IMG/VR virus record: IMGVR_UViG_3300032217_000665
Location: 1-22,529 of that record
Strand: one strand, 5' to 3'
DNA: 22,529 nt
DNA from: a virus
The position numbers were made by a program, and so were the translations under genes. The notes under the pieces were generated by a model. The model ran no database searches and was not told the origin of the DNA. It saw nothing but the letters and a program-made list of their open reading frames with translations. This document shows, piece by piece, positions 2,820-21,918 of the stretch. Every line of letters begins with the position of its first letter. Position 1 is the first letter of the stretch.

Positions 2820-2858
2820 ATAAAAAAATGCCCTCCTAGAAATAGGGGGGTATTTTTA
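2820..2858. terminator. Bidirectional intrinsic terminator between convergent genes
   Basis: An 11-bp stem, with G-T pairs, spans 2828-2853 around a GAAA tetraloop (2839-2842). It has T-rich tails in both directions. It closes the rightward lysin gene and overlaps the 3' end of the leftward GT32 gene, ending the glycan operon. Confidence 0.85.
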
Positions 2859-3515
2859 TATACTTTCAGTTTTCCAAGATTTATACGATGAGTCAAAAAT
2901 TCCACCATTACCTGCATAGTAGTGTTCAATTGAGTCTTGGTGAATTATCTTTGCATCATCACCAACAAATTCTATAAAACCATCTTGTGTATTTTTTAGA
3001 GTTTTATTAATTGAATCAGTAAAAATAATATATCCTGTTTCTTTAATTTCATAATCTATAATATTGCTATATTGTATATTTTTGCAGTATTGATCTTTGA
3101 TATCATTTAATATATTTGTTAAAAATATGCTTTTAGGCTCTGAAGCAAATATTGATTGCGTATACCCATCTGTATCTGGTTCAATAGAAACTACAAACTT
3201 AGAACTAATATCTAGCCAACTTTCAATTGGTTTCTTGCATAACATATCTAAATCAGAGTATAGTCCTCCATATAGATATAGACACATATATCTCCATAGA
3301 TCTGATCGTAAAACATCTAACTTGTAAGACTTGTATATTTGATACCATTCTTCTCCAAAATTATTCTTTACAATCAATTCCCTTTTTTCTTTAGAACAAT
3401 ATTGATATTCCCATTCTGGATTTAAACTTTTCCAAGAGTCAATAAGTTGTTTTGCCTTATCCGATAAATCTTTATAGTCTGTCTCATACGTTTGCCAAAT
3501 AATTTTAGGTATCAT
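2856..3515 (-). CDS. Glycosyltransferase family 32 (OCH1-like sugar transferase)
   Basis: 219 residues. Starts IPKIIWQTY with NPEWEYQYC near residue 32. The core is KLDVLRSDLWRYMCLYLYGGLYSDLD, split here as residues 65-90, where DLD at 88-90 is the metal-binding DXD of GT32-type enzymes. These transfer a sugar from a nucleotide donor to a glycan. The length suits a single-domain bacterial or viral member. No membrane segment, so probably cytosolic. It is the last gene of the nine-gene operon and overlaps the methyltransferase stop by 4 bp. Likely substrates are a phage virion glycan or host surface glycan, which is inferred from context. Family call is strong; donor and acceptor are unknown. 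Confidence 0.85.
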   Translation of the reverse strand: MIPKIIWQTYETDYKDLSDKAKQLIDSWKSLNPEWEYQYCSKEKRELIVKNNFGEEWYQIYKSYKLDVLRSDLWRYMCLYLYGGLYSDLDMLCKKPIESWLDISSKFVVSIEPDTDGYTQSIFASEPKSIFLTNILNDIKDQYCKNIQYSNIIDYEIKETGYIIFTDSINKTLKNTQDGFIEFVGDDAKIIHQDSIEHYYAGNGGIFDSSYKSWKTESI

Positions 3516-4141
3516 TTTATTCCTAGTTCATAATCATATGTAAATATATAATCTTTTGTATTATATTGCATTGGTATACCAGTAAACCTTGTAAGTCCAA
3601 CAATATGATTTATTTCTGAAATATTTTTAATAATTTCAATGTGCTCATATTCATTATTTTCAAAAGATGTTTTTATAAAGTTAAATGTTCTTTCATTTGC
3701 AGTCCAAATAATATAAGCATTATTATTTAAAAGTTGTTTAATTTTTATAACTGTATTTTCTATATCATTAAAAGATAAATGTCCAAAAAAACCAACTGCT
3801 AATAAAAGGTCTGCTCTAAAGTTATCATAAGTTTTTATAAATCCAGCATCGGCTGATACTGCTTTAATATTATACATGTTATGAGTAAATATATATTGTT
3901 TTGCTAAATTAATTGATTCTTGATCACTATCTACTAATAAAACATTATTATAATTTAAATTATTTTCTAATATAGTTTCTAGGATATCTTTTCCTTCTCC
4001 AGAGCATATGCTTAAGACATTTGGAGTATCTAATAATTTAAAACAATTTAAAATATTATTTTTTATAATTTTTAACCTTTTATTTAAATGAGACTCTTTA
4101 TTATTATATTCCTCATTCCAGAATCGCCAACCTGTCTTCAT
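3512..4141 (-). CDS. Class I SAM-dependent methyltransferase
   Basis: 209 residues. Motif I of Rossmann methyltransferases is visible as NVLSICSGEGKDIL (41-54). The acidic residue closing strand 2 is in VLLVDSDQES (67-76). A later strand reads ADLLLAVGFFGHLS. These bind S-adenosylmethionine. The target cannot be read from sequence. Located between a radical SAM enzyme and GT32, with 4-bp overlaps to both, it probably methylates a sugar or glycan intermediate. Very AT-rich, with many Asn and Ile codons. Confidence 0.75.
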   Translation of the reverse strand: MKTGWRFWNEEYNNKESHLNKRLKIIKNNILNCFKLLDTPNVLSICSGEGKDILETILENNLNYNNVLLVDSDQESINLAKQYIFTHNMYNIKAVSADAGFIKTYDNFRADLLLAVGFFGHLSFNDIENTVIKIKQLLNNNAYIIWTANERTFNFIKTSFENNEYEHIEIIKNISEINHIVGLTRFTGIPMQYNTKDYIFTYDYELGIK

Positions 4142-5130
4142 ATATTAATACTTGATGACAAGGGTGGGTTAACTCCCTCATCCCAAACTGCTCTAAAGCA
4201 ACTAGTACATATTCCACTATATGCTTTTTTAATTGCATCTTGTCTTTCTTGACTATTCCAAATTTCTTTAATTGTTTTATTGTTTATATTATCATAAGTG
4301 GTTTCATAACTAAAGTCTGCACAGCAAAGATATACATTTCCAGTTGCTGATATAAATAATTCTTGATCTGGATATTTGTTTCCACAACCAATTACTTTTC
4401 CTTTTTGATTTTGTTTGATAGCACTTTGGTTTGATATAATTTTAAGTTCTGAAAGAATATTGGTTCTATCTGATAAGTTATTTCTTAAAGAAACCATAAA
4501 TTTTGGAAACATTGCTTGCATTTTATTTACAATTCTTAGATGCTCTCCTTCTGAATAAAATGGTGCATCTTCTAAAACTTCCATCCATCCACCATTTTCT
4601 ATTTTTGCTTCTGGGCTTATTCCATTTACAAGGATCATAAGTTGTTCGCCCTTAAAGGTATCTGAAAGAATGTCGCTTGCATAGTGAAGGTTGTTTATTA
4701 ATTTATCAAACAATTTTGGATGAAATCCAGTAAATTTACTCCACTGTTCTTGTTCTATTGATGGGATATTAAGAATTACATCTGTAACTACATCACTATA
4801 GTCTTTTATTAAATCAGTTTTATCTATTGTTAAATTTACCCCATTAGAAAAAATATACATTTTAATATTATATTTTCTATGAAGATCTAACATTTCTTTA
4901 AAATATGGATAAAGTAAAGTTTCGTTATAGTGTATTGGATTGTTTATAATATCAATATTTGGATCAACAAAATCGCCTCTACCATCGTCAATTTGTTTTA
5001 AAATATTCTCCATAGTTTCAAGAGACATTGTTCCACGATTTTCTTTTGGGTTTCCTAGGTAAGCGACTGGACAAAACCAACATTTAGCATTGCAAATGCC
5101 ATTTGGATCTATGTTTATGTGTTTAATCAT
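4138..5130 (-). CDS. Radical SAM enzyme with SPASM-like C-terminal domain (copy 2)
   Basis: 330 residues from ATG at 5130. A GTG six codons upstream is possible, but the ATG aligns with the start of the paralogue at 6023-7006. The CX3CX2C cluster motif, Cys13, Cys17 and Cys20 in NGICNAKCWFC, binds the 4Fe-4S cluster that cleaves SAM. Downstream are FSNGVNLT and LNIPS, usual barrel elements. The C-terminus has further Cys sites (IGCGNKY, NVYLCCADF, GICTSCF), as in SPASM domains that hold extra Fe-S clusters. SPASM enzymes modify peptides or other substrates; here the glycan neighbours suggest sugar chemistry or a modified virion component. Overlaps the epimerase by 8 bp and the methyltransferase by 4 bp. 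Confidence 0.85.
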   Translation of the reverse strand: MIKHINIDPNGICNAKCWFCPVAYLGNPKENRGTMSLETMENILKQIDDGRGDFVDPNIDIINNPIHYNETLLYPYFKEMLDLHRKYNIKMYIFSNGVNLTIDKTDLIKDYSDVVTDVILNIPSIEQEQWSKFTGFHPKLFDKLINNLHYASDILSDTFKGEQLMILVNGISPEAKIENGGWMEVLEDAPFYSEGEHLRIVNKMQAMFPKFMVSLRNNLSDRTNILSELKIISNQSAIKQNQKGKVIGCGNKYPDQELFISATGNVYLCCADFSYETTYDNINNKTIKEIWNSQERQDAIKKAYSGICTSCFRAVWDEGVNPPLSSSINI

Positions 5131-6019
5131 TATTTTTAATCCATTCACCTAATTGAGTTTTTGGTTCCCAGCCAAGGATATACTTTGCTTTTTCTATATT
5201 GGAAAGAATTGACCTGGACTCTCCTGGTCTTTGTGGTATATTAATTGTCTTGTAATTAAAAAACTTTGCTATTTCATTTACAGAATAACTTTTGCCTCCG
5301 CCAATATTAAATACTTGACCAATATATTTACTATCTACGTCTTTTGTTGCTGCAAGAATATTTGCCTCAACTACATCTCCAACATATGTAAAATCTCTAG
5401 TTTGTTCACCATCTCCAACAATAGTTAATGGCATTTTATTTTGTTTTTGATTTTTAAATGTTCCAATGACTGGAGCATAAATACCTCTTGATGGTTGGCG
5501 ATCACCATAGACATTGAAGTATCTTAAAGTAATTGTTTCAAGTCCATATAAATCAAAATATGTTTTGCATAATGTTTCTGCACAGACCTTAGATGTTGAA
5601 TATGGTGTCAGGCAGTCGGTTGGCTGTGTTTCAATATTAGGAACTGGATTTCTACCATATGATGAAGATGTTGATGAAAAAACTACTCTTTTAACTCCTG
5701 CTTGTCTAGCACACTCTAAGACAGTTGCAGTGCCTAATGCATTAACTCTAACAGTTTCTACTGGATGATCAATAGTTCTTTGTATTCTAGCCATGGCTGC
5801 CAGATGAAAAACATAGTCAACATTATCATATAATTCTCTAGTATTTACATAATCACAGATATCTCTTTTATAGTTTTGTGCTTTTTCATTCCAATGAAAT
5901 TCATTATTTGCTACTGCAGATTCATTATCAATTACCACTACATCATATCCAAGATCAATTAAACAATCAACTAGAGTTGATCCAATAAATCCTGCTCCAC
6001 CTGTAACCAATGCTTTCAT
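5123..6019 (-). CDS. NAD-dependent nucleotide-sugar epimerase/dehydratase (extended SDR)
   Basis: 298 residues. The NAD-binding GxxGxxG is at 7-13 (GGAGFIGS), with Asp31 closing strand 2 as expected for NAD(H). HLAAMA follows at about 72. The catalytic triad is SSTSSSYG (115-122) and YSTSK (Tyr140, Lys144). RYFNVYGDRQ and RPGES match UDP-glucose/UDP-glucuronate 4-epimerases and related dehydratases. It should change the stereochemistry of a UDP- or similar sugar in the cytosol and so feed the glycosyltransferases in this operon. Exact donor sugar is not predictable. It lies between the two radical SAM paralogues, which suggests they act on the same pathway or arose by duplication around it. 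Confidence 0.88.
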   Translation of the reverse strand: MKALVTGGAGFIGSTLVDCLIDLGYDVVVIDNESAVANNEFHWNEKAQNYKRDICDYVNTRELYDNVDYVFHLAAMARIQRTIDHPVETVRVNALGTATVLECARQAGVKRVVFSSTSSSYGRNPVPNIETQPTDCLTPYSTSKVCAETLCKTYFDLYGLETITLRYFNVYGDRQPSRGIYAPVIGTFKNQKQNKMPLTIVGDGEQTRDFTYVGDVVEANILAATKDVDSKYIGQVFNIGGGKSYSVNEIAKFFNYKTINIPQRPGESRSILSNIEKAKYILGWEPKTQLGEWIKNND

Positions 6020-6022
6020 TTT

Positions 6023-7006
6023 TTACTCCCAAATCGCATACTTGCAACTTCTACAAAAATTATTATATGATTTTTTAATCATATCTTGTCTTTCTGAACT
6101 TTCCCAAATTTCCTTAATTGTTTTATCTTTTATATTAATATATGCTGTCACAAAATCATAATCGTGACAACATAAAATTATATCACCGTTGGCGTTTATA
6201 TGCAGCCATTCTTCTGCACGGCTTAAGCCAAAGGATTCTCCTCCAGCACAGGCAACAACCTTTTTGCTAAAATTTTGTGCTTGAATCTTTATAATATCGT
6301 AATTGCTTAATACATCATTTTGTTCTAGTTTTCCAGATCTATCATTTAAATGTATATCTGAAAATACACCTGATCTTGGAAAAAGTTTTTTAAATTCTGC
6401 AAGAGATTTAGCAACATCTCCACTATCTTTATCATAGTTTAAGTGTGGTGCCTTTTTTAGAAGTTTTACTGCTCCGCCATTTTCAAAAAAAGATTCTTCC
6501 TGAACTCCATTAACTTGAATTCCAAACATCATTCCAACTTTAGAAAATTCTTCTTCTGCATATTGTAAATTTTGTATTAATTTATCAAACATCTTTACAT
6601 TAAAGCCAGTATATGCTGCCCATTGTTCTGGGAATGCTGAGGGAATGTTTAGTGTTATATGATTAACTACATTGGGGTACTGCTTTATAAAATCAATTTT
6701 ATCTTTAGTCAAGGTTGTTCCATTGCTAAATAAAATTGTTGTTAGGCCATATTTGTGATAAGCCTCAATCATTTTTTTAAAATCTGGGTATAAAAGAACT
6801 TCATTATAGTGAGCATTAATTACAATGTTAAAGTTAGGATCAACAAAATCTCCCCTACCTTTATGCAACTGATCTAAGACATTAATTAATACATTTATGT
6901 CCATATTTTTTCTTCCAATTACTGGATTTCCACCATATGCTACAGGACAATACCAACACTTGGCATTGCAAAGTCCATTTGGATCTAATTCAAGAACTTT
7001 AATCAT
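6023..7006 (-). CDS. Radical SAM enzyme with SPASM-like C-terminal domain (copy 1)
   Basis: 327 residues. Cys13, Cys17 and Cys20 form CX3CX2C in NGLCNAKCWYC, the radical SAM 4Fe-4S site. The C-terminal Cys sets (VVACAGGES, DIILCCHDYD, NFCRSCKYAIWE) look like a SPASM domain. It is a clear paralogue of the enzyme at 4138-5130. They share CPVAY-GNP, KGRGDFVDPN/DGRGDFVDPN, YNE-LLYP, LNIPS, FDKLI-NL-YA and IKEIW-S-ERQD. The start overlaps the sulfotransferase stop by one base. Reaction unknown; role in a sugar or peptide modification is inferred from neighbours. Confidence 0.85.
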   Translation of the reverse strand: MIKVLELDPNGLCNAKCWYCPVAYGGNPVIGRKNMDINVLINVLDQLHKGRGDFVDPNFNIVINAHYNEVLLYPDFKKMIEAYHKYGLTTILFSNGTTLTKDKIDFIKQYPNVVNHITLNIPSAFPEQWAAYTGFNVKMFDKLIQNLQYAEEEFSKVGMMFGIQVNGVQEESFFENGGAVKLLKKAPHLNYDKDSGDVAKSLAEFKKLFPRSGVFSDIHLNDRSGKLEQNDVLSNYDIIKIQAQNFSKKVVACAGGESFGLSRAEEWLHINANGDIILCCHDYDFVTAYINIKDKTIKEIWESSERQDMIKKSYNNFCRSCKYAIWE

Positions 7007-7848
7007 TAGTAATATCTTTCTATAAAAATACCTTTGTCATTTAATTTTTTTAACATAAAATTATATTTTTCATCTATTTTGTTTGCAATATCTAAATTTT
7101 TCCATTTACCAAGATCAACACTATCTGTGGATATTTGATTATTAAAAAATGCAATCATTTCTAGATTTTCTTTTATTGAAAGAAAAGACAATATTTTTTC
7201 TTTTTCTACATTTTTTGATACAAAATCTTCCAACCTTATATTTAAATAAGATTTTTCTGGAATTTTTGATAATGATTCAAAAGAATCTATAACTCTATTG
7301 TACCACCAGTCTAAGGCATCTAATTGATTATTTCTTTTTTCTAAATTCCAAAAATTTTTCATTTGAAAAATTGAATATGCCGTATCTCTTCCGTCTCTAA
7401 TCATATTAATAAATTTAGCATCTTCCCATATTTCAAAAATATCGTCAGCATACTTAATATTAGATGGGGTTGAGTCTCCAAGGTATAAGGAATTTTTATT
7501 AAATGTTTTTTGATTTAAAAATAAATCTTTATAAAAAACATCTATTGCTAGTTTATTATTTTGAATAAACGTATTAATTAATTTATTTGTCATCTGTTTT
7601 ATATTTTCAACATCTATATTTGAATAAATGCCAGTTGTTTTATCTGTTGGATTTAACCAGGCATCTTCTAAATAGAATAAAAAACTATTAATGTCTTTTG
7701 TTTTATATAAATCAAGCAACCCATATTGCTCGGTTAATATTCTTAGTTCTATTGGATCACTTGCATGGACTAGGTTACTTTTACCAAGATACTCTAGTAA
7801 GATTGTTGTTCCACTTCTTCCAGTGCCACCAATAAAAAGAGGTATCAT
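7006..7848 (-). CDS. PAPS-dependent sulfotransferase family protein
   Basis: 280 residues. The N-terminal IGGTGRSGTTILLEYL (6-21) is the 5'-phosphosulfate loop of sulfotransferases. FINMIRDGRDTAYS (146-159) is the 3'-phosphate binding strand and helix, with Arg151 and Asp155. LYLGDSTPSN (121-130) is also typical. The enzyme would move a sulfate group from PAPS to a hydroxyl or amine of a glycan or protein. No signal peptide. Neighbours overlap by 4 bp and 1 bp. A second, more divergent sulfotransferase-like gene is at 8560-9234. Carbohydrate sulfation is inferred. Confidence 0.83.
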   Translation of the reverse strand: MIPLFIGGTGRSGTTILLEYLGKSNLVHASDPIELRILTEQYGLLDLYKTKDINSFLFYLEDAWLNPTDKTTGIYSNIDVENIKQMTNKLINTFIQNNKLAIDVFYKDLFLNQKTFNKNSLYLGDSTPSNIKYADDIFEIWEDAKFINMIRDGRDTAYSIFQMKNFWNLEKRNNQLDALDWWYNRVIDSFESLSKIPEKSYLNIRLEDFVSKNVEKEKILSFLSIKENLEMIAFFNNQISTDSVDLGKWKNLDIANKIDEKYNFMLKKLNDKGIFIERYY

Positions 7849-8567
7849 TTTTGAAAAAACTCTCTACGAAAATTATTTGTAGTGCTCATTTGTTCAATTT
7901 CTTTCCAAAATTTATTTCTATATATCTGTCTTAGATCATCGTCATATTTTAAAATCATATTATCGTCTGTGATTTCAGCATAATATAAAATTTCTTGTAG
8001 TGTATATGTAATCATTTGATTATTTCCACAATAAATATTTAATCTATTCCAGTAGTCTTCGTCTCCACTGTATCCTATATCATCAAAATATCCTAAAACC
8101 TCAAAGGCTTTTTTATTAAAAAAAGCATGGGCTAGGTTTACCATTGGTGTAAAGGGTTCTCCATACCAACTTGGGGGAGTGTTTCCAAATCTTAATTCTA
8201 AATCTTGTACTCCTAAAACCTTGTCATTCTCTTTAAACGTATTGACTATTTTTTCAAACCGATCTGGTTGTGAAAAATCATCTGCATCATGTGTTGTGTA
8301 TATATCATATAAACCAGACTCCATAAACTTTATTCCTGTATTTTTACTATAAAAACATCCACTATTTTTAACATTATTCACAATTGTAACTCTTGGATCG
8401 TATAAAAATTTTTCTGCTTCTTTTAAAGAGTTATCAGTAGATGCATCATTCACAATTATTAAAGAAAAATTTGAATATGTTTGTTCCAGTATACTATTAA
8501 TTGCTCGTTTAAGAAGTCTTGCTTCATTGTATACTGGCAAAGACACTAATATTTTTAAATTATTCAT
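7845..8567 (-). CDS. Glycosyltransferase family 2 (GT-A fold)
   Basis: 240 residues from ATG at 8567. An in-frame TTG at 8579 is possible but has no better ribosome site. VSLPVYNEARLLKRAINSIL (8-27) and IIVNDASTDNS (37-47) are the nucleotide-binding start of GT2 enzymes. THDADD (92-97) contains the metal-binding DXD, and GYSGDEDYWNRL near residue 165 is the usual ED acid/base region. It transfers a sugar from a nucleotide donor with inversion. No membrane helix is seen, so cytosolic action is likely. The start overlaps the preceding gene's stop by 8 bp. Confidence 0.87.
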   Translation of the reverse strand: MNNLKILVSLPVYNEARLLKRAINSILEQTYSNFSLIIVNDASTDNSLKEAEKFLYDPRVTIVNNVKNSGCFYSKNTGIKFMESGLYDIYTTHDADDFSQPDRFEKIVNTFKENDKVLGVQDLELRFGNTPPSWYGEPFTPMVNLAHAFFNKKAFEVLGYFDDIGYSGDEDYWNRLNIYCGNNQMITYTLQEILYYAEITDDNMILKYDDDLRQIYRNKFWKEIEQMSTTNNFRREFFQK

Positions 8568-9234
8568 ATTTATACCCAAAATATTCTAACTCCCAGGACC
8601 ATTCTTGTTTGATTAATTTGATATGGTTGTCTAAAAAAATATCATGATAGTGTATCTGTTTTGGTCTAAATGATTTTTCTTGTATATCTAGCGTAATTTT
8701 TGGAAGATTGTGCAAAGGAAGAATTTTATTTATTTCTTTTTCTATTCCATTTTCATATCTTAAAAATTCATTTATTTGAATAGTTCCCTCTTTAGATGTA
8801 TATAAATGCCTATTGCTCTTAAGCCATCCCCAGCCTAACTCTCCATTAAAATATTTAAACAAAAGTTTTGATTGTTCTTTATCTGTTAATTCTAACCATT
8901 TAGTATTTAATCCTTCAAATTTTAATCTATGAAAAAAATGAGACAAAACCATTTCAAAAGGATTTCTTATAAAGATATAAGATTTTACTCCAGATAAAGA
9001 TATTTTATTATTTATTTCAGAATATGACATGTGGTTATAAAAACCTTCATAATTTCTTGGATTATAATCTTTATAGATAGGCTCATCACTTAATTTCCAG
9101 GCTGGATCGTCTGATGTCTTTGGAGTAATTATTGCATCTGCTGGCATTATCCTAGATAGTGGCACTTCTAATGAGGTTCCACCAACTTTTTGATTTTTAA
9201 GCAATAAAAAATTATTTTTTAATGAAAGAATCAT
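8560..9234 (-). CDS. Sulfotransferase family 2-like protein
   Basis: 224 residues. NQKVGGTSLEVPLS (14-27) corresponds to the PKxGGTS 5'-phosphosulfate loop of carbohydrate sulfotransferases of the Sulfotransfer_2 type. YIFIRNPFEMVLSHFFHRL (86-104) is the 3'-phosphate site (vRnPfer-vS-y pattern). The C-terminal part is Lys/Glu-rich and less conserved. It probably sulfates a carbohydrate. There is no clear Shine-Dalgarno before the ATG. The gene begins 15 bp after the unknown gene at 9250-9576. Confidence 0.75.
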   Translation of the reverse strand: MILSLKNNFLLLKNQKVGGTSLEVPLSRIMPADAIITPKTSDDPAWKLSDEPIYKDYNPRNYEGFYNHMSYSEINNKISLSGVKSYIFIRNPFEMVLSHFFHRLKFEGLNTKWLELTDKEQSKLLFKYFNGELGWGWLKSNRHLYTSKEGTIQINEFLRYENGIEKEINKILPLHNLPKITLDIQEKSFRPKQIHYHDIFLDNHIKLIKQEWSWELEYFGYKYE

Positions 9235-18213: not shown

Positions 18214-18329
18214 TTTTCCTTGCCTAGGTTATTTGCTCTTATTTGCTACGCTCATACTATTTCTAGTCTTATTTGGTAGGCTCAGAGGCTCACTAGGATT
18301 TTTCTTTATTTAATTTTTCTTATAGTAGA

Positions 18330-18369
18330 ATACTATCACACTATCCCCGAAAAGTCAAGACGACACGCC
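18330..18369 (-). promoter_or_regulatory. Early leftward promoter with GGCGTGTCG element
   Basis: Minus strand: GGCGTGTCG (18361-18369), 2 bases, TTGACT (18353-18358), a 17-base spacer, and TAGTAT (18330-18335) preceded by TGA. A leader of about 150 bases leads to the gene at 18172. Confidence 0.8.
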
Positions 18370-18379
18370 GTAGGCTAGG

Positions 18380-18395
18380 TGTGATTTAGCCCACA
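18380..18395. promoter_or_regulatory. CRP/GlxR-like palindrome
   Basis: TGTGATTTAGCCCACA matches TGTGA-N6-TCACA with one mismatch. Its centre is 57.5 bp from the downstream end of the -10 at 18330. It overlaps the last codons of the gene at 18386-18526. Confidence 0.55.
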
Positions 18396-18526
18396 TATTT
18401 AGAGCATAGAGGGTATCTGGAGTGTATGGCTAGGTAGCCACACTCTGGGCAGATAGCGTCTCCTAGACGCTCTAGTAGGGCTTCTGGACTCTCTAAAGAG
18501 TTTCTATTTTCATATAGTGAGTTCAT
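18386..18526 (-). CDS. 46-residue Cys-pair (zinc) mini-protein
   Basis: ATG at 18526, 5 bases after AGAAAGGAG, TAA at 18386-18388. Product starts MNSLYENRNSLESPEALLER; then CPECG (Cys26, Cys29) and Cys41 form a probable small zinc knuckle with His35 nearby. It has its own promoter (18572-18600) and a leader hairpin. A 7-bp inverted repeat (AGCGTCT with AGACGCT) lies inside the coding region. Function unknown; probably an early host-interaction or regulatory protein. Confidence 0.65.
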   Translation of the reverse strand: MNSLYENRNSLESPEALLERLGDAICPECGYLAIHSRYPLCSKYVG

Positions 18527-18541
18527 CTGAACTCCTTTCTT

Positions 18542-18560
18542 ATAGTTATACTTTAACTAT
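18542..18560 (-). promoter_or_regulatory. Leader hairpin at 5' end of early mRNA
   Basis: ATAGTTA with TAACTAT (7 bp, 5-base loop) begins about where the promoter at 18572-18600 should start RNA, and is directly followed by AAGAAAGGAG and the ATG at 18526. Confidence 0.55.
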
Positions 18561-18571
18561 CTAATACTGCA

Positions 18572-18611
18572 AGTATAACATAGATACCCCCAAAAGTCAA
18601 GACGACACGCC
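18572..18611 (-). promoter_or_regulatory. Early leftward promoter with GGCGTGTCG element
   Basis: GGCGTGTCG (18603-18611), 2 bases, TTGACT (18595-18600), a 17-base spacer, and TATACT (18572-18577) preceded by TGT. It has the same layout as the promoter at 18330-18369. Confidence 0.83.
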
Positions 18612-18621
18612 GTATAATTAA

Positions 18622-18637
18622 TGTGATTTAGGCCACA
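18622..18637. promoter_or_regulatory. CRP/GlxR-like palindrome
   Basis: TGTGATTTAGGCCACA, one mismatch to TGTGA-N6-TCACA. Its centre is 57.5 bp from the -10 end at 18572, identical to the spacing at the other leftward promoter. Confidence 0.6.
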
Positions 18638-18649
18638 CGGGGCGGGTGC

Positions 18650-18709
18650 TGTGGATAACCTGTGGATTGTTGTTCATCTGTTGTTCATCTTGGAATCCCA
18701 CGACACGCC
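18650..18709. other. DnaA-box cluster with 11-bp tandem repeat; possible replication origin
   Basis: TGTGGATAA (18650-18658) is the reverse complement of the perfect DnaA box TTATCCACA; TGTGGATTG follows at 18661-18669 with two mismatches. TGTTGTTCATC occurs twice in tandem (18668-18678, 18679-18689). A minus-strand GGCGTGTCG closes the block (18701-18709). Early genes diverge from this region. Origin function is inferred. Confidence 0.4.
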
Positions 18710-18738
18710 GATAAAATGTCAGTGGTAGGTGATAGACT
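18710..18738 (+). promoter_or_regulatory. Early rightward promoter, ATGTCAGT type
   Basis: GATAAA at the -35 place, 17-base spacer beginning ATGTCAGT, and TAGACT (18733-18738) preceded by TGA. Similar promoters are at 20705-20733 and 21890-21918. The leader then folds an 8-bp hairpin, GTTGAGAA with TTCTCAAC (18753-18771), just before AAGAAAGG. Confidence 0.65.
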
Positions 18739-18790
18739 TCTAGGTATAGAAGGTTGAGAAAGGTTCTCAACAAGAAAGGTAGGTCATAAA

Positions 18791-18973
18791 ATGACTACAC
18801 TAATAAAAGAGATAACACTCTCAAATGTTACCGCTGACGAGGCTAATCAAATCGTCTGCGTGTTCTGTTCTGATTATTGCTCAGAAAATTTCTGCGTATC
18901 TTGTAATGAATACAAGGGTCTGATGACTCTTGGTGAGTGGTTATCATACACTCAAGAAAGTTGGTTAGCATAA
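18791..18973 (+). CDS. 60-residue Cys-rich mini-protein
   Basis: The N-terminal part MTTLIKEITLSNVTADEANQ suggests a short strand and helix. It is followed by Cys23, Cys26, Cys30, Cys35 and Cys38 (VCVFCSDYC, FCVSC), which could form a zinc or other metal site. The C-terminus ends LGEWLSYTQESWLA. It is the first gene of rightward operon A, with an AAGAAAGG ribosome site behind a strong leader hairpin. The stop overlaps the next ATG by one base. No family recognised. Confidence 0.68.
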   Translation: MTTLIKEITLSNVTADEANQIVCVFCSDYCSENFCVSCNEYKGLMTLGEWLSYTQESWLA

Positions 18974-19095
18974 TGGGTTATGTAGAAATTTTTCGCCTTG
19001 ATGAACAAGGTGCTGGTTGGGTAGATTTATCTGAGGCTACCCCGTCAGAATTGCTTGACTTAGAAATTGGTTTATTTCAGGAAGGTGCATTGTAA
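18973..19095 (+). CDS. 40-residue early protein, unknown
   Basis: TAATG overlap at both ends (18971-18975 and 19093-19097) shows tight coupling. The product starts MGYVEIFRLDEQGAGWVDLS and ends with an acidic helix, PSELLDLEIGLFQEG. It has no Cys or membrane helix. Codon use is like its neighbours. Function unknown. Confidence 0.6.
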   Translation: MGYVEIFRLDEQGAGWVDLSEATPSELLDLEIGLFQEGAL

Positions 19096-19196
19096 TGACT
19101 AAAGATATTTTTGGATTTGAAAAATCAATTCAACTTGATCATCTTAATGATGAACAAATTAATTTACTTGATGAAATTTTTAAAGATTTCAAATAA
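19095..19196 (+). CDS. 33-residue acidic early peptide
   Basis: Starts in the TAATG of the previous gene; product MTKDIFGFEKSIQLDHLNDE then QINLLDEIFKDFK. It is helical and acidic. It is last in operon A, and a terminator-like hairpin starts 10 bases after the stop. Real translation is supported by coupling; function unknown. Confidence 0.55.
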   Translation: MTKDIFGFEKSIQLDHLNDEQINLLDEIFKDFK

Positions 19197-19205
19197 ATAA
19201 AAACT

Positions 19206-19255
19206 AAAGTTGCAGAATAATAAACTGCAATTTTAGGGGCGCCCGTGGTCGGGCG
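19206..19255 (+). terminator. End of operon A: AT-rich stem plus GC hairpin
   Basis: TTGCAG (19210-19215) with CTGCAA (19225-19230), loop of 9 bases, stem extended by A-T pairs into TTTT (19231-19234). Directly after is CGCCCG-TGGT-CGGGCG (19240-19255), which leads into GGCGTGTCG (19252-19260). The same pair of elements ends operon B. Confidence 0.6.
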
Positions 19256-19267
19256 TGTCGCTGCTTA

Positions 19268-19283
19268 TGTGATAAAGAACACA
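19268..19283. promoter_or_regulatory. CRP/GlxR-like palindrome
   Basis: TGTGATAAAGAACACA, one mismatch to TGTGA-N6-TCACA, 7 bp after GGCGTGTCG. Centre 77.5 bp from the -10 end at 19353. Confidence 0.5.
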
Positions 19284-19289
19284 CTCTCT

Positions 19290-19334
19290 GAGCGTCTCAT
19301 TATTTGGAATTACTGGAAAGTAACTTGATATTTT
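19290..19334 (+). repeat. 45-bp promoter-region repeat, copy 1
   Basis: Begins GAGCGTCTCA, contains AATTACTGG and ends TTGATATTTT. It matches 21779-21823 at 38 of 45 positions by hand alignment. It includes the -35 of the promoter at 19325-19353. Confidence 0.7.
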
Positions 19335-19353
19335 GAGGTTTTTATGGGATAAT
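19325..19353 (+). promoter_or_regulatory. Early rightward promoter of operon B
   Basis: TTGATA (19325-19330), 17-base spacer, GATAAT (19348-19353) preceded by TGG. The leader contains AGTGG...CCACT (19371-19389) and then AAGAAAGGAAG before ATG at 19408. Confidence 0.78.
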
Positions 19354-19407
19354 AGTATTATTAGAAAGTAAGTGGTAAAGAAATCCACTAAAGAAAGGAA
19401 GTTAAAA

Positions 19408-19602
19408 ATGACTTCATTAAAAAATAAAACCAATATTGGTTTAGCACTAGGAATTTCTGGTGTTCTCGAAAATCGTATTTTACACGATTGGAATAATGGT
19501 GGATGTAAATCTGCTTATGGTCTTAGCGTTTATCAACGCAAAGTTTTGCTAAAAGTTTTAATTAGCGAAAATCCTAAATGCGAATGCGTGGTGTGTTTAT
19601 AA
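19408..19602 (+). CDS. 64-residue early protein, unknown
   Basis: ATG at 19408 chosen because AAAGAAAGGAAG lies 8 bases upstream; a GTG at 19372 falls in the leader hairpin. The product starts MTSLKNKTNIGLALGISGVL, then NRILHDWNNGGCKSAYGLSV and ends NPKCECVVCL. The basic, helical middle (QRKVLLKVLIS) and Cys cluster at the C-terminus (KCECVVC) may bind metal. First gene of operon B; stop overlaps the next start. Unknown function. Confidence 0.68.
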   Translation: MTSLKNKTNIGLALGISGVLENRILHDWNNGGCKSAYGLSVYQRKVLLKVLISENPKCECVVCL

Positions 19603-19841
19603 TGAGCATATCACTCGCTAATAAATTGGCTAAAGATAAATTCTTTTTGCCACCTTCAAAATATATTAACCACAAAGTTGTGGAAATTATTTCGCTAAAT
19701 GACGAAACTGAAATGGTTTCAGTTACACTTCAGAAATATGGAATTAGTCGTAGTGCTAATGCCGTAAAAGGTAATTTAATAACTATTGAATTGCCATATT
19801 CAGAATTCAAAAACTTAAATGGTTGGGGAAATAATAAATGA
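19602..19841 (+). CDS. 79-residue early protein, unknown
   Basis: ATG at 19602 in a TAATG overlap is preferred over ATG at 19578, which lies inside the previous gene. The product starts MSISLANKLAKDKFFLPPSK, then a beta-rich part HKVVEIISLNDETEMVSVTL and KYGISRSANAVKGNLITIEL. The spacing suggests a small barrel. The ATGA overlap with the next gene couples translation. No family recognised. Confidence 0.68.
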   Translation: MSISLANKLAKDKFFLPPSKYINHKVVEIISLNDETEMVSVTLQKYGISRSANAVKGNLITIELPYSEFKNLNGWGNNK

Positions 19842-20044
19842 CAATTAAAATTGGTGGGCTAGGACAAGAAGTTTCTTGTTACTGCCCTATATGTTCAGAA
19901 AAAATGACTCATATGTGCGTGGCTACTCTTGGAACGGGCAAAACAATTCGCTATGAGTGGCAATGTAATTCTTGCGAACTTTATCTAAAATCAGATAGAG
20001 ATGGAAATGCTAAGATGTTAAAAGAAATGGAGTTAATAAAATGA
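19838..20044 (+). CDS. 68-residue zinc-ribbon mini-protein
   Basis: Two Cys pairs, CPIC (16-19) and CNSC (43-46), with Cys14 and Cys27 nearby, give a classical zinc-ribbon order separated by a beta hairpin (MTHMCVATLGTGKTIRYEWQ). Overlaps both neighbours by 4 bp (ATGA). Zinc ribbons of this size in phages often bind nucleic acids or host RNA polymerase, but nothing here proves that. Confidence 0.72.
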   Translation: MTIKIGGLGQEVSCYCPICSEKMTHMCVATLGTGKTIRYEWQCNSCELYLKSDRDGNAKMLKEMELIK

Positions 20045-20205
20045 GCACTTTTGTAAATCTTGATTCCGTTTGCGGAAAATCATCTGCTTCTGTTGATGTC
20101 TATGACTTAGACCTCAATCCTCATGGCGTTATCTGTTGCGATAACTGCCGTTCAATTTTAATCTGCCGTAAGGCGTGGGACTTTTTATACAAGGAGAATA
20201 AATAA
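20041..20205 (+). CDS. 54-residue Cys-rich early protein
   Basis: ATG at 20041 overlaps the previous TGA. Product starts MSTFVNLDSVCGKSSASVDV; the middle has GVICCDNCRSILICRKAW with Cys32, Cys33, Cys36 and Cys42 plus Cys11. This looks like a knuckle-type metal site. Ends FLYKENK with TAA directly before the next ATG. Function unknown. Confidence 0.62.
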   Translation: MSTFVNLDSVCGKSSASVDVYDLDLNPHGVICCDNCRSILICRKAWDFLYKENK

Positions 20206-20298
20206 ATGAAAACACTACAAGAAAAATTAGATGAAAGCGCAAAAGCGTTAGAGCCAATTCTTTGGGAACTACTAGATGAGATTGAAGAGAATAAATAA
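20206..20298 (+). CDS. 30-residue acidic helical peptide
   Basis: ATG immediately after the previous TAA; AAGGAG 10 bases upstream is a good ribosome site. Product MKTLQEKLDESAKALEPILW then ELLDEIEENK, nearly all helix and strongly acidic. The next gene starts directly after its stop. Possibly an anti-host peptide; no family can be given. Confidence 0.55.
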   Translation: MKTLQEKLDESAKALEPILWELLDEIEENK

Positions 20299-20469
20299 AT
20301 GATGACTAGAAAAGACTATGTTGCAATTTCAACAATTCTAAATCAACATGCAAAATCTTATATGGATGAAACTGATTTCCAAATTTTAGTTGATGAGTTT
20401 GGAGAATTCTTTTTTGCTGATAATAAAAATTTTTCTCCAAACCAATTTGAAGTTGCTTGTTTCAAATAA
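20299..20469 (+). CDS. MTRKDYV-family small phage protein (copy 1)
   Basis: 56 residues: MMTRKDYVAISTILNQHAKS, then TDFQILVDEFGEFFFADNKN and FSPNQFEVACFK. It is a paralogue of 21314-21502: both start MMTRKDYV, have FFADN-xFSPN-FE-AC and end an operon's soluble genes. This family, with an ADNPRFD-like C-terminal phrase, is widespread in actinophages and other environmental phages and has no known function. It is last in operon B, with a terminator-like hairpin 8 bases after. Confidence 0.75.
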   Translation: MMTRKDYVAISTILNQHAKSYMDETDFQILVDEFGEFFFADNKNFSPNQFEVACFK

Positions 20470-20476
20470 TAAAAAT

Positions 20477-20526
20477 AAAGTTTGCAAAATAAAAACTTGC
20501 AAATTTTAGACCGCCCCGTTCGGGCG
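20477..20526 (+). terminator. End of operon B: AT-rich stem plus GC hairpin
   Basis: TTTGCAA (20481-20487) with TTGCAAA (20497-20503), 9-base loop, then TTTT. Next is CGCCC (20512-20516) with GGGCG (20522-20526), running into GGCGTGTCG (20523-20531). Same order as at 19206-19260. Confidence 0.65.
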
Positions 20527-20534
20527 TGTCGCAA

Positions 20535-20550
20535 TGTGTTTAAGATCACA
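20535..20550. promoter_or_regulatory. CRP/GlxR-like palindrome
   Basis: TGTGTTTAAGATCACA, one mismatch to TGTGA-N6-TCACA, 3 bp after GGCGTGTCG. Centre 67.5 bp from the -10 end at 20610. Confidence 0.5.
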
Positions 20551-20570
20551 GAAATAGTTGCCCGTTTTAC

Positions 20571-20610
20571 GGCGTGTCGATTTGCTTTTTTGATATTTTT
20601 CTGTTATACT
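20571..20610 (+). promoter_or_regulatory. Early rightward promoter with GGCGTGTCG element
   Basis: GGCGTGTCG (20571-20579), 2 bases, TTGCTT (20582-20587), 17-base spacer, TATACT (20605-20610) preceded by TGT. Mirror copy of the layout of the two leftward early promoters. The leader could fold GCTAATG (20645-20651) with CATTAGC (20689-20695). Confidence 0.8.
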
Positions 20611-20667
20611 TACAGAGTAAGAAAAACTAAATAAGGACAAATTGGCTAATGAGCCTAATCAAATAAG

Positions 20668-20683
20668 TGTGATAAATATCACA
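20668..20683. promoter_or_regulatory. Perfect CRP/GlxR-consensus palindrome
   Basis: TGTGATAAATATCACA fits TGTGA-N6-TCACA exactly, with 7 paired bases per half-site. Centre 57.5 bp from the -10 end at 20733, the same distance as at both leftward promoters. It also lies 58 bp downstream of the TATACT box at 20605-20610. Confidence 0.65.
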
Positions 20684-20704
20684 ATGAGCATTAGCGAATA
20701 AGTA

Positions 20705-20733
20705 GCCAAAATGTCAGTGCTTAGTGATAGGAT
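20705..20733 (+). promoter_or_regulatory. Early rightward promoter, ATGTCAGT type
   Basis: GCCAAA at the -35 place, ATGTCAGT at the start of a 17-base spacer and TAGGAT (20728-20733) preceded by TGA. A perfect dyad, GATAGGA-TAG-TCCTATC (20726-20742), overlaps the -10 and could be an operator. Confidence 0.6.
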
Positions 20734-20763
20734 AGTCCTATCAAATAAAGAAAGGAAGTCAAA

Positions 20764-20955
20764 ATGACTTATACTATGAAAATAGAAACTTTTAGCGGTT
20801 TAGTCAAAACCGTTGCCCTTCCCTCAAAGGGAGCCGTTGCTCAATTCGTAAATACTTACCCTGAACAATTACCAGTTGGCATTAGTGTCAAAGTGTCGTG
20901 TGATGTTCTAGGTATTCGTGGAGTGCTACGAGGAAAGTCGTTGGTGAGTAAATGA
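20764..20955 (+). CDS. 63-residue early protein, unknown
   Basis: Starts MTYTMKIETFSGLVKTVALP, then SKGAVAQFVNTYPEQLPVGI and a beta-rich basic C-terminus, GVLRGKSLVSK. Good AAGAAAGGAAG ribosome site. The alternation of charged and hydrophobic residues suggests a small alpha/beta fold. First gene of operon C; the stop overlaps the next start by 4 bp. No family recognised. Confidence 0.7.
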   Translation: MTYTMKIETFSGLVKTVALPSKGAVAQFVNTYPEQLPVGISVKVSCDVLGIRGVLRGKSLVSK

Positions 20956-21092
20956 TAAACTCAGTAATGACAATTCCTTGCGATGAGTGTAATGGTGTTG
21001 GTCTTATCTTTTTTGGTAATGACCAAGACTATGATGTAGAAACTTGCGATTGCCAAGAAGTAAAACAATTTAACCAAACAGAAAAAGAATAG
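20952..21092 (+). CDS. 46-residue DnaJ-type zinc-knuckle mini-protein
   Basis: CDECNGVG (Cys10, Cys13) followed by TCDCQ (Cys32, Cys34) is the CxxCxGxG-type half of DnaJ-like zinc fingers, reduced to one site. Starts in the ATGA overlap. A later ATG (20967) is also possible. Such mini-proteins are common in actinophage early regions; role unknown. Confidence 0.65.
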   Translation: MINSVMTIPCDECNGVGLIFFGNDQDYDVETCDCQEVKQFNQTEKE

Positions 21093-21104
21093 GAAATAAA
21101 ATAA

Positions 21105-21314
21105 ATGATAACACTAAACCACTCAATAAACCTTGTAACGGAAATTGACGAAAACAAAATGCCTGACCACTTGCTAAACACTTTTTTAAACCTTAGCGAA
21201 CTTCAAATGGAAATGCTATTGCGTGAGACTTTTGTAAGAGCGCTAAACGATTTAAATGTATTTGAAAAAATAAACGAGCATAACACTTATGCGATTGTAA
21301 AGGTGGCTGACTAA
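21105..21314 (+). CDS. 69-residue early protein, unknown
   Basis: Starts MITLNHSINLVTEIDENKMP, then a helical part LLNTFLNLSELQMEMLLRET and ends KINEHNTYAIVKVAD. No Cys or membrane helix. Weak AGGAAA ribosome site. Stop overlaps the next ATG (TAATG). Helical Leu/Met-rich middle may mediate dimerisation. Unknown family. Confidence 0.66.
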   Translation: MITLNHSINLVTEIDENKMPDHLLNTFLNLSELQMEMLLRETFVRALNDLNVFEKINEHNTYAIVKVAD

Positions 21315-21502
21315 TGATGACCAGAAAAGACTATGTGTCTACTGCTGAAATTCTTGCTACTTATTCAAACGAAATTCCTCAAATTATTTTTGAGGATTTG
21401 GTTGGTGATTTTTGTGATATGTTTTTTGCAGATAATCCAAGATTCTCACCAAATAAATTTGAAGAGGCTTGCTATAAAGAATTAGAAGGTGAGTTAAAAT
21501 AA
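21314..21502 (+). CDS. MTRKDYV-family small phage protein (copy 2)
   Basis: 62 residues: MMTRKDYVSTAEILATYSNE, then FEDLVGDFCDMFFADNPRFS and PNKFEEACYKELEGELK. FADNPRFSPNKFEEAC is the usual C-terminal signature of this family. Paralogue of 20299-20469, with a longer acidic C-terminus. Coupled by TAATG at both ends. Function unknown. Confidence 0.77.
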   Translation: MMTRKDYVSTAEILATYSNEIPQIIFEDLVGDFCDMFFADNPRFSPNKFEEACYKELEGELK

Positions 21503-21651
21503 TGATACTAGATACTGGCACACTTATTGCAATAACAATTGCACTCGCTGCACCTATTGTGGTAATGTTTTGGAAACAGAACATTGAAATGCAAAAAGAA
21601 ATTAGGCGATTGCAAGTTGCACTAAGAACTGAGCGACGCAAAACTAAATAA
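21502..21651 (+). CDS. 49-residue small membrane protein
   Basis: MILDTGTLIAITIALAAPIV then VMFWKQNIEMQKEIRRLQ and a basic end (RTERRKTK). One membrane helix spans about 7-24 and is followed by a short basic coiled coil, so an N-out, C-in topology is likely by the positive-inside rule. Starts within the preceding TAA (TAATG). Last in operon C. Similar single-helix proteins are common in phage early regions; function unknown. Confidence 0.68.
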   Translation: MILDTGTLIAITIALAAPIVVMFWKQNIEMQKEIRRLQVALRTERRKTK

Positions 21652-21685
21652 TAAAATAAAAACCTAAGCAAGATCTAAAACTGCT

Positions 21686-21713
21686 CCCAATTTTTGGGCG
21701 CCCCGTTCGGGCG
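21686..21713 (+). terminator. End of operon C: CCCAA/TTGGG and GC hairpin
   Basis: CCCAA (21686-21690) with TTGGG (21694-21698) and, alternatively, CGCCC (21699-21703) with GGGCG (21709-21713). The latter hairpin and the following GTGTCG match 20512-20531 almost base for base. No strong T tail follows, so termination is uncertain. Confidence 0.45.
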
Positions 21714-21735
21714 TGTCGTCCACAGTTTAAGAAAG

Positions 21736-21744
21736 TTATCCACA
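21736..21744. promoter_or_regulatory. Perfect DnaA-box sequence
   Basis: TTATCCACA. A related word, TCGTCCACA (21716-21724), one base from the actinobacterial form TTGTCCACA, overlaps the GGCGTGTCG copy at 21710-21718. Confidence 0.45.
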
Positions 21745-21756
21745 ACCTCTGGAACT

Positions 21757-21772
21757 TGTGAGATTTATCACA
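21757..21772. promoter_or_regulatory. Perfect CRP/GlxR-consensus palindrome
   Basis: TGTGAGATTTATCACA, an exact TGTGA-N6-TCACA, extended by one further T/A pair. Centre 77.5 bp from the -10 end at 21842, equal to the distance at operon B. Confidence 0.65.
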
Positions 21773-21778
21773 ACACTT

Positions 21779-21823
21779 GAGCGTCTCACTATCTGAAATT
21801 ACTGGCTAGTAGTTTGATATTTT
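21779..21823 (+). repeat. 45-bp promoter-region repeat, copy 2
   Basis: Partner of 19290-19334, 38 of 45 positions identical by hand alignment. It includes the -35 of the promoter at 21814-21842. Confidence 0.7.
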
Positions 21824-21842
21824 ATGTCTAATAGGCTAGACT
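21814..21842 (+). promoter_or_regulatory. Early rightward promoter upstream of operon D
   Basis: TTGATA (21814-21819), 17-base spacer and TAGACT (21837-21842). A second promoter lies 76 bp downstream. Confidence 0.68.
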
Positions 21843-21878: not shown

Positions 21879-21918
21879 GGCGTGTCGTTTAGGAAATGTC
21901 AGTCTTATCTGCTAAGAT
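21879..21918 (+). promoter_or_regulatory. Early rightward promoter, GGCGTGTCG plus ATGTCAGT type
   Basis: GGCGTGTCG (21879-21887), 2 bases, TAGGAA, 17-base spacer starting ATGTCAGT, and TAAGAT (21913-21918) preceded by TGC. It joins both early promoter elements in one site. A GATAT/ATATC dyad (21916-21927) overlaps the -10. Confidence 0.6.

Follow-up and report, generated by a model that had tools for sequence, protein, structure and literature searches.

Helically phased palindromes in a phage promoter block as predicted operators of a host CRP/GlxR-family regulator

What do palindromes of the CRP/GlxR type do in front of a block of viral promoters? The question is raised by a 22,529-bp IMG/VR fragment (IMGVR_UViG_3300032217_000665), the whole of which is called the window here. 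We searched it for TGTGA-N6-TCACA with at most one mismatch and found six sites, two perfect and four with one mismatch, all within 18380-21772. A first-order Markov model gave 0.81 ± 0.87 such sites per window, with a maximum of 4 in 300 runs. An earlier reading of the DNA, the original prediction, had placed six sites at 18380, 18622, 19268, 20535, 20668 and 21757, and both coordinates and match classes were re-found exactly. The remainder of the window, including the late region that this prediction had scanned incompletely, contained no site at the same threshold. The palindromes are likely to serve as operators for a host CRP/GlxR-family regulator, which would act as a class I-like activator at phage early promoters. 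The palindromes and their promoters are:

18380..18395, minus strand: palindrome p1, CRP/GlxR-type (TGTGGGCTAAATCACA on the minus strand), centre at about -64.5
18330..18358, minus strand: promoter p1, TTGACT 18358-18353, 17 bp, TAGTAT 18335-18330 (TG-extended)
18622..18637, minus strand: palindrome p2 (TGTGGCCTAAATCACA), centre at about -64.5
18572..18600, minus strand: promoter p2, TTGACT 18600-18595, 17 bp, TATACT 18577-18572
19268..19283, plus strand: palindrome p3 (TGTGATAAAGAACACA), centre at about -84.5
19325..19353, plus strand: promoter p3, TTGATA, 17 bp, GATAAT
20535..20550, plus strand: palindrome p4 (TGTGTTTAAGATCACA), centre at about -74.5
20582..20610, plus strand: promoter p4, TTGCTT, 17 bp, TATACT
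20668..20683, plus strand: palindrome p5 (TGTGATAAATATCACA, perfect), centre at about -64.5
20710..20733, plus strand: promoter p5, AATGTCAG 20710-20717 (-30) replacing the -35, extended -10 TAGGAT 20728-20733
21757..21772, plus strand: palindrome p6 (TGTGAGATTTATCACA, perfect), centre at about -84.5
21814..21842, plus strand: promoter p6, TTGATA, 17 bp, TAGACT

All six palindromes lie upstream of the -35 and none overlaps the core promoter. The distance D, measured from the site centre (boundary of bases 8 and 9) to the last base of the -10, was 58, 58, 78, 68, 58 and 78 bp for p1 to p6. The values previously given (57.5, 57.5, 77.5, 67.5, 57.5 and 77.5 bp) differ by counting convention alone. 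The leaders had also been called non-homologous, which holds for four leader classes but not within two pairs: identity is 71% over 89 nt between p1 and p2, and 75% over 67 nt between p3 and p6. Because these pairs are paralogous, the window alone supplies four independent cases, not six.

Phasing was scored against an extended -10 (TGnTAnnnT) set independently of the palindrome, for D of 40 to 90 bp, with sites in phase when D fell within 1 bp of 48, 58, 68, 78 or 88. In-phase placement was found for 30 of 44 sites in genomes selected by protein (12.9 expected) and for 93 of 126 in contigs selected by pattern (37.1 expected). Scrambled palindromes gave 2-10 matches each and no preferred distance. 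Markov expectation, scrambled controls and phasing excess together led us to reject a chance origin. Sites lacking GGCGTGTCG, a second repeat described below, were still in phase in 77 of 107 cases (31.5 expected), so phasing is not a by-product of that motif. When the whole viral collection was scanned for palindrome-N12..42-TTGA-N16-TGnTAnnnT (D of 49 to 79), D was 58 in 30, 68 in 18 and 78 in 11 among the at least 93 matches listed. The 10-bp phasing first proposed for the window thus persists in more than 100 deduplicated promoters from other contigs. Among six p5 orthologues, the TGTGA and TCACA half-sites were invariant and the N6 was variable. For example, the orthologue in contig G003 has a 1-nt deletion and a 1-nt insertion between site and promoter, with a net 58 bp kept. 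Where an ATG closely followed the -10, it stood 6-7 nt downstream at 13 of 20 promoters, which fits leaderless starts with the last base of the -10 at -7, and so places the centres at -64.5, -74.5 and -84.5.

A protein search with the block gene at 19605-19838 returned 11 related contigs, two of them longer than 100 kb. With at most one mismatch, 9 of the 10 sites in G003 (116.6 kb) fell at 94.3-103.6 kb, and 11 of the 14 in G006 (109 kb) at 55.8-66.5 kb. In both, the site-rich region is one block of about 13 kb made of small-gene operons. Perfect sites numbered 4-8 per genome of 98-117 kb (counted over 14 records), compared with 0 for the pattern read backwards. Strong sigma-70-type promoters of G003 and G006 had a site in 10 of 14 cases within the block vs 1 of 24 elsewhere. 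Clustering at a single promoter block and 10-bp steps in relatives had both been put forward as checks, and both were seen. All the computational tests by which the original prediction had proposed to be judged were run, and none counted against it. Its word "early" rests on gene content, by which the palindrome-bearing operons are probably early genes.

The collection-wide scan also matched contig G023, whose TerL is 77% identical to those of OX376640 and OX376641, titled phages LanE43-AprE7 and LanE43-AprF5 in their records. No phages had been cultured on Ca. Planktophila before these two, whose actinobacterial host is proven (PMC10202952). E7 and F5 differ from the clade of the window in their 39-kb genomes and a TerL only marginally similar to that of the clade, but both share its perfect palindromes. 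Site 2477 of E7 stands 68 bp from its promoter, TTGACT-17-GAGATT. Eighty relatives selected by TerL only, 1.0 Mb in total, contained 74 perfect sites vs 0-2 for scrambled patterns. Their D values were 47-49 (7), 57-58 (3) and 69-70 (4), none of 71 sites lay within a long open frame, and the site centre was T/A in 71%. The viral collection was without the G2 freshwater actinophages KU886271 and KU886273. Since site and register match across different virus families, a host regulator would be the simplest factor common to both.

What, then, would bind? Across 537 distinct sites, the positions outside the search pattern read TGTGATnTAnATCACA. This preference for a central TA, T at 6 and A at 11 matches the CRP/GlxR consensus. 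GlxR, the CRP of Corynebacterium glutamicum, recognizes TGTGA-N6-TCACA and is a cyclic AMP (cAMP)-dependent activator of ldhA (PMC7999487). The phage sites resemble GlxR operators in consensus, central TA and actinobacterial hosts; they differ in standing at phage promoters, with a host binder predicted from sequence. Profile searches of the relatives tested, long ones included, found no cNMP-binding domain (PF00027) and no HTH_Crp_2 domain (PF13545), and a phage-encoded CRP was rejected on these grounds. In the absence of a CRP-type protein from these relatives, the host's own protein probably binds. A phage sigma factor was likewise rejected (two sub-threshold PF04545 matches only), as were temperate-phage operators, since eight long relatives lack a tyrosine integrase. 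The palindromes show neither the core-promoter overlap nor the genome-wide dispersal of repressor operators or stoperators.

These findings bear on a first alternative, that a phage-encoded regulator, outside the CRP family or on an unassembled part, reads the CRP-like palindrome and times the phage's own operons. Most block genes have no known function and the palindromes are restricted to the phage's own regulatory block, as such a regulator might predict. However, it is unlikely: the consensus equals that of CRP/GlxR even in its central TA, a second phage family has the site in the same register, and the relatives tested contain neither PF00027 nor PF13545. The variant offered in the original prediction, a phage protein copying the host site, is disfavoured by the lack of these domains in those relatives.

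We favour the host CRP/GlxR explanation because of the sites themselves, their consensus, their restriction to one block, their register, their conservation, their recurrence in a second family and the lack of a phage CRP homologue in the long relatives. A host CRP/GlxR dimer on the palindrome would lie on one helix face relative to RNA polymerase. It would recruit the polymerase side by side in a class I-like manner, probably via the alpha C-terminal domain, at phage early sigma-70-type promoters. Binding by host CRP/GlxR, the role of cAMP, activation and the early timing of the operons are steps that we infer. Tuning to a host CRP-family regulator, as originally proposed, thus gains from clustering, phasing, consensus match and second-family recurrence, while its dependence on cAMP or carbon state is the conjectural part.

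The same host protein might instead repress or delay these promoters. Host cAMP-CRP represses the pir, dam and recE promoters of phage T1 (PMC6737242), and GlxR-type regulators are capable of both modes. Like T1, the phages described here would have promoters under host CRP control, in this case predicted from sites. Unlike T1, where repression is tied to lysogeny induction, they reiterate a phased operator across a promoter block, which suggests activation. Placement at whole turns upstream of the -35, clear of the core, is the pattern expected of an activator, and a lysogeny switch is less likely in view of the eight long relatives without tyrosine integrase. We therefore give repression a low probability, marginally below that of a phage regulator. 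A role in DNA architecture or replication (bending, origin, packaging), with phasing inherited from copied leader modules, is very improbable: leaders are partly paralogous and perfect DnaA boxes lie nearby, but D takes three to four separate values, spaced by one turn, in deduplicated leaders, the p5 orthologue has compensating indels, and the position upstream of promoters is strand-specific.

At class I CRP promoters of Escherichia coli, the lac site is centred at -61.5 and other helically phased centres lie at -71.5, -82.5 and -92.5. The phage promoters share with them TGTGA-N6-TCACA upstream of the -35 and positions one helical turn apart. They differ in centres at about -54, -64.5, -74.5 and -84.5, the constant shift of about 3 bp that had been calculated for a -10 ending at -7, and in a host polymerase that is actinobacterial here. 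As the E. coli register is not kept, they are class I-like in geometry and are not filed as E. coli-type class I. This departure is one of several points that weigh against activation by a host CRP/GlxR protein. An in-phase TGnTAnnnT accompanies 329 of 616 palindromes and is lacking at about half, and relatives share ancestry, so that p-values are approximate and indicative. Actinobacteria as hosts of the 109-117 kb clade are an inference from sequence, and the CRP/GlxR gene of the host is presumed. G023 and the clade of the window also share short leader stretches of 24-46 nt, and limited exchange of promoter modules between the two families is possible.

The host assignment draws on several genes. 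Portal (47-49%) and capsid (about 40%) proteins of the relatives, the window itself being a fragment, are similar to those of Streptomyces phages such as Comrade of the Stanwilliamsviridae (MH651172), which also shares DnaE, WhiB and a similar gene order. Unlike the clade, Comrade has a single perfect palindrome (122405), with GGCGTGTCG 247 bp off and no reiterated operators. Wbl genes occur in 9 of 21 records, and the reductase is 60-61% identical to its counterparts in Mycobacterium phage Gaia and Actinomycetia phage DSL-LC01. DSL-LC01 is the nearest relative by reductase and contains no clustered sites. A search of genomes for exact tRNA-Glu matches returned only the contig L163 (CANGYR010000020.1), which belongs to a Chitinophagaceae metagenome-assembled genome. 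Both its tRNA-Glu and its gene for a small heat-shock-like protein are those of the phage clade, and the contig is probably phage DNA misbinned into that assembly. Nothing on the crp gene of the host was found in the literature.

The original prediction described the palindromes and -10s of these promoters correctly and overlooked two further elements at fixed positions, GGCGTGTCG and AATGTCAG. The window contains eight exact copies of GGCGTGTCG (18361, 18603, 18701, 19252, 20523, 20571, 21710 and 21879) vs 0.3 expected with one mismatch allowed. At several promoters it occupies -46 to -38, and it is also found beside operon ends; at p1, p2 and p4 its last base is 2 bp ahead of the -35. Its spacing from the palindrome is stepwise (8, 10-12, 20-23 and 30-31). 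AATGTCAG (18715, 20710 and 21895) starts exactly at -30, within the spacer, and often stands where a recognisable -35 would be. Deduplication left 111 in-phase promoters; in 38, AATGTC begins exactly at -30, as it does in p5. Additional regulators probably bind both elements at these promoters. The corresponding features are:

18361..18369, minus strand: GGCGTGTCG motif, 2 bp upstream of the p1 -35
18603..18611, minus strand: GGCGTGTCG motif, 2 bp upstream of the p2 -35
18701..18709, minus strand: reversed GGCGTGTCG motif, ahead of the AATGTCAG promoter at 18715
18715..18738, plus strand: extra promoter with no close palindrome, AATGTCAG 18715-18722 (-30), TGA-TAGACT 18733-18738
19252..19260, plus strand: GGCGTGTCG motif upstream of palindrome p3
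20523..20531, plus strand: GGCGTGTCG motif upstream of palindrome p4
20571..20579, plus strand: GGCGTGTCG motif, 2 bp upstream of the p4 -35
21710..21718, plus strand: GGCGTGTCG motif upstream of palindrome p6
21879..21918, plus strand: extra promoter with no palindrome, GGCGTGTCG 21879-21887 (-46), AATGTCAG 21895-21902 (-30), TGC-TAAGAT 21913-21918

The core site of WhiA is GACAC (PMC3781837), and GGCGTGTCG includes its complement, GTGTC, a weak match of 5 bp only. Like WhiA sites of Streptomyces, it lies beside promoters, and the long relatives encode a Wbl protein; unlike them, it appears as a conserved 9-bp block fixed at -46 to -38. As a candidate WhiA site it is only a lead. In L042, L044, L048 and L071, GGCGTGTCG forms part of palindrome-N10/20-GGCGTGTCG-N2-TTGACA composites that have a GC-rich hairpin in place of a -10.

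Other repeats accompany the block. Perfect DnaA boxes (TTATCCACA), enriched about 11-fold in the block, stand near palindromes at 18650 (minus strand) and 21736 (plus strand) of the window and also in G003, G006 and G009-G011. GC-rich perfect palindromes separate operons, of the GGGCGCCC type in the window (19240, 20510 and 21698) and as GGGACGTCCC in relatives (L020 and L024 of G003 and G006). A leader element, ATGAGCCTAnCAAATAAG, is repeated in 5' untranslated regions at 18237-18296 (minus strand) and 20645-20705 (plus strand), is conserved in relatives and is a possible RNA element; no Rfam family and no tRNA was detected in the window. In the late region (2856-9234, minus strand), open reading frames read as radical SAM, methyltransferase-like, sulfotransferase-like and glycosyltransferase-like genes lie beside tail genes and possibly serve surface decoration.

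To our knowledge, the prevailing view is that phages begin infection from strong, mostly unregulated promoters. Host CRP at phage promoters is known in few cases, such as T1. Here, a large group of uncultured actinobacterial viruses appears to route a whole promoter block via the host cAMP regulator, which suggests that the onset of infection would follow the metabolic switch of the host. Chances are about even that such a host-metabolic start evolved convergently in two or more phage families of the most abundant freshwater actinobacteria, with early promoters gated by host cAMP-CRP/GlxR, an actinobacteria-specific register (about -54, -64.5, -74.5 and -84.5) and two more fixed elements. The geometry is precise enough to be read from sequence, and the cultured Ca. 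Planktophila phages allow direct testing. If true, the palindrome code would be a marker for such phages and their hosts, would be evidence from nature for the register in which an actinobacterial CRP activates, and would link carbon or energy state to the infection of a dominant freshwater lineage by viruses.

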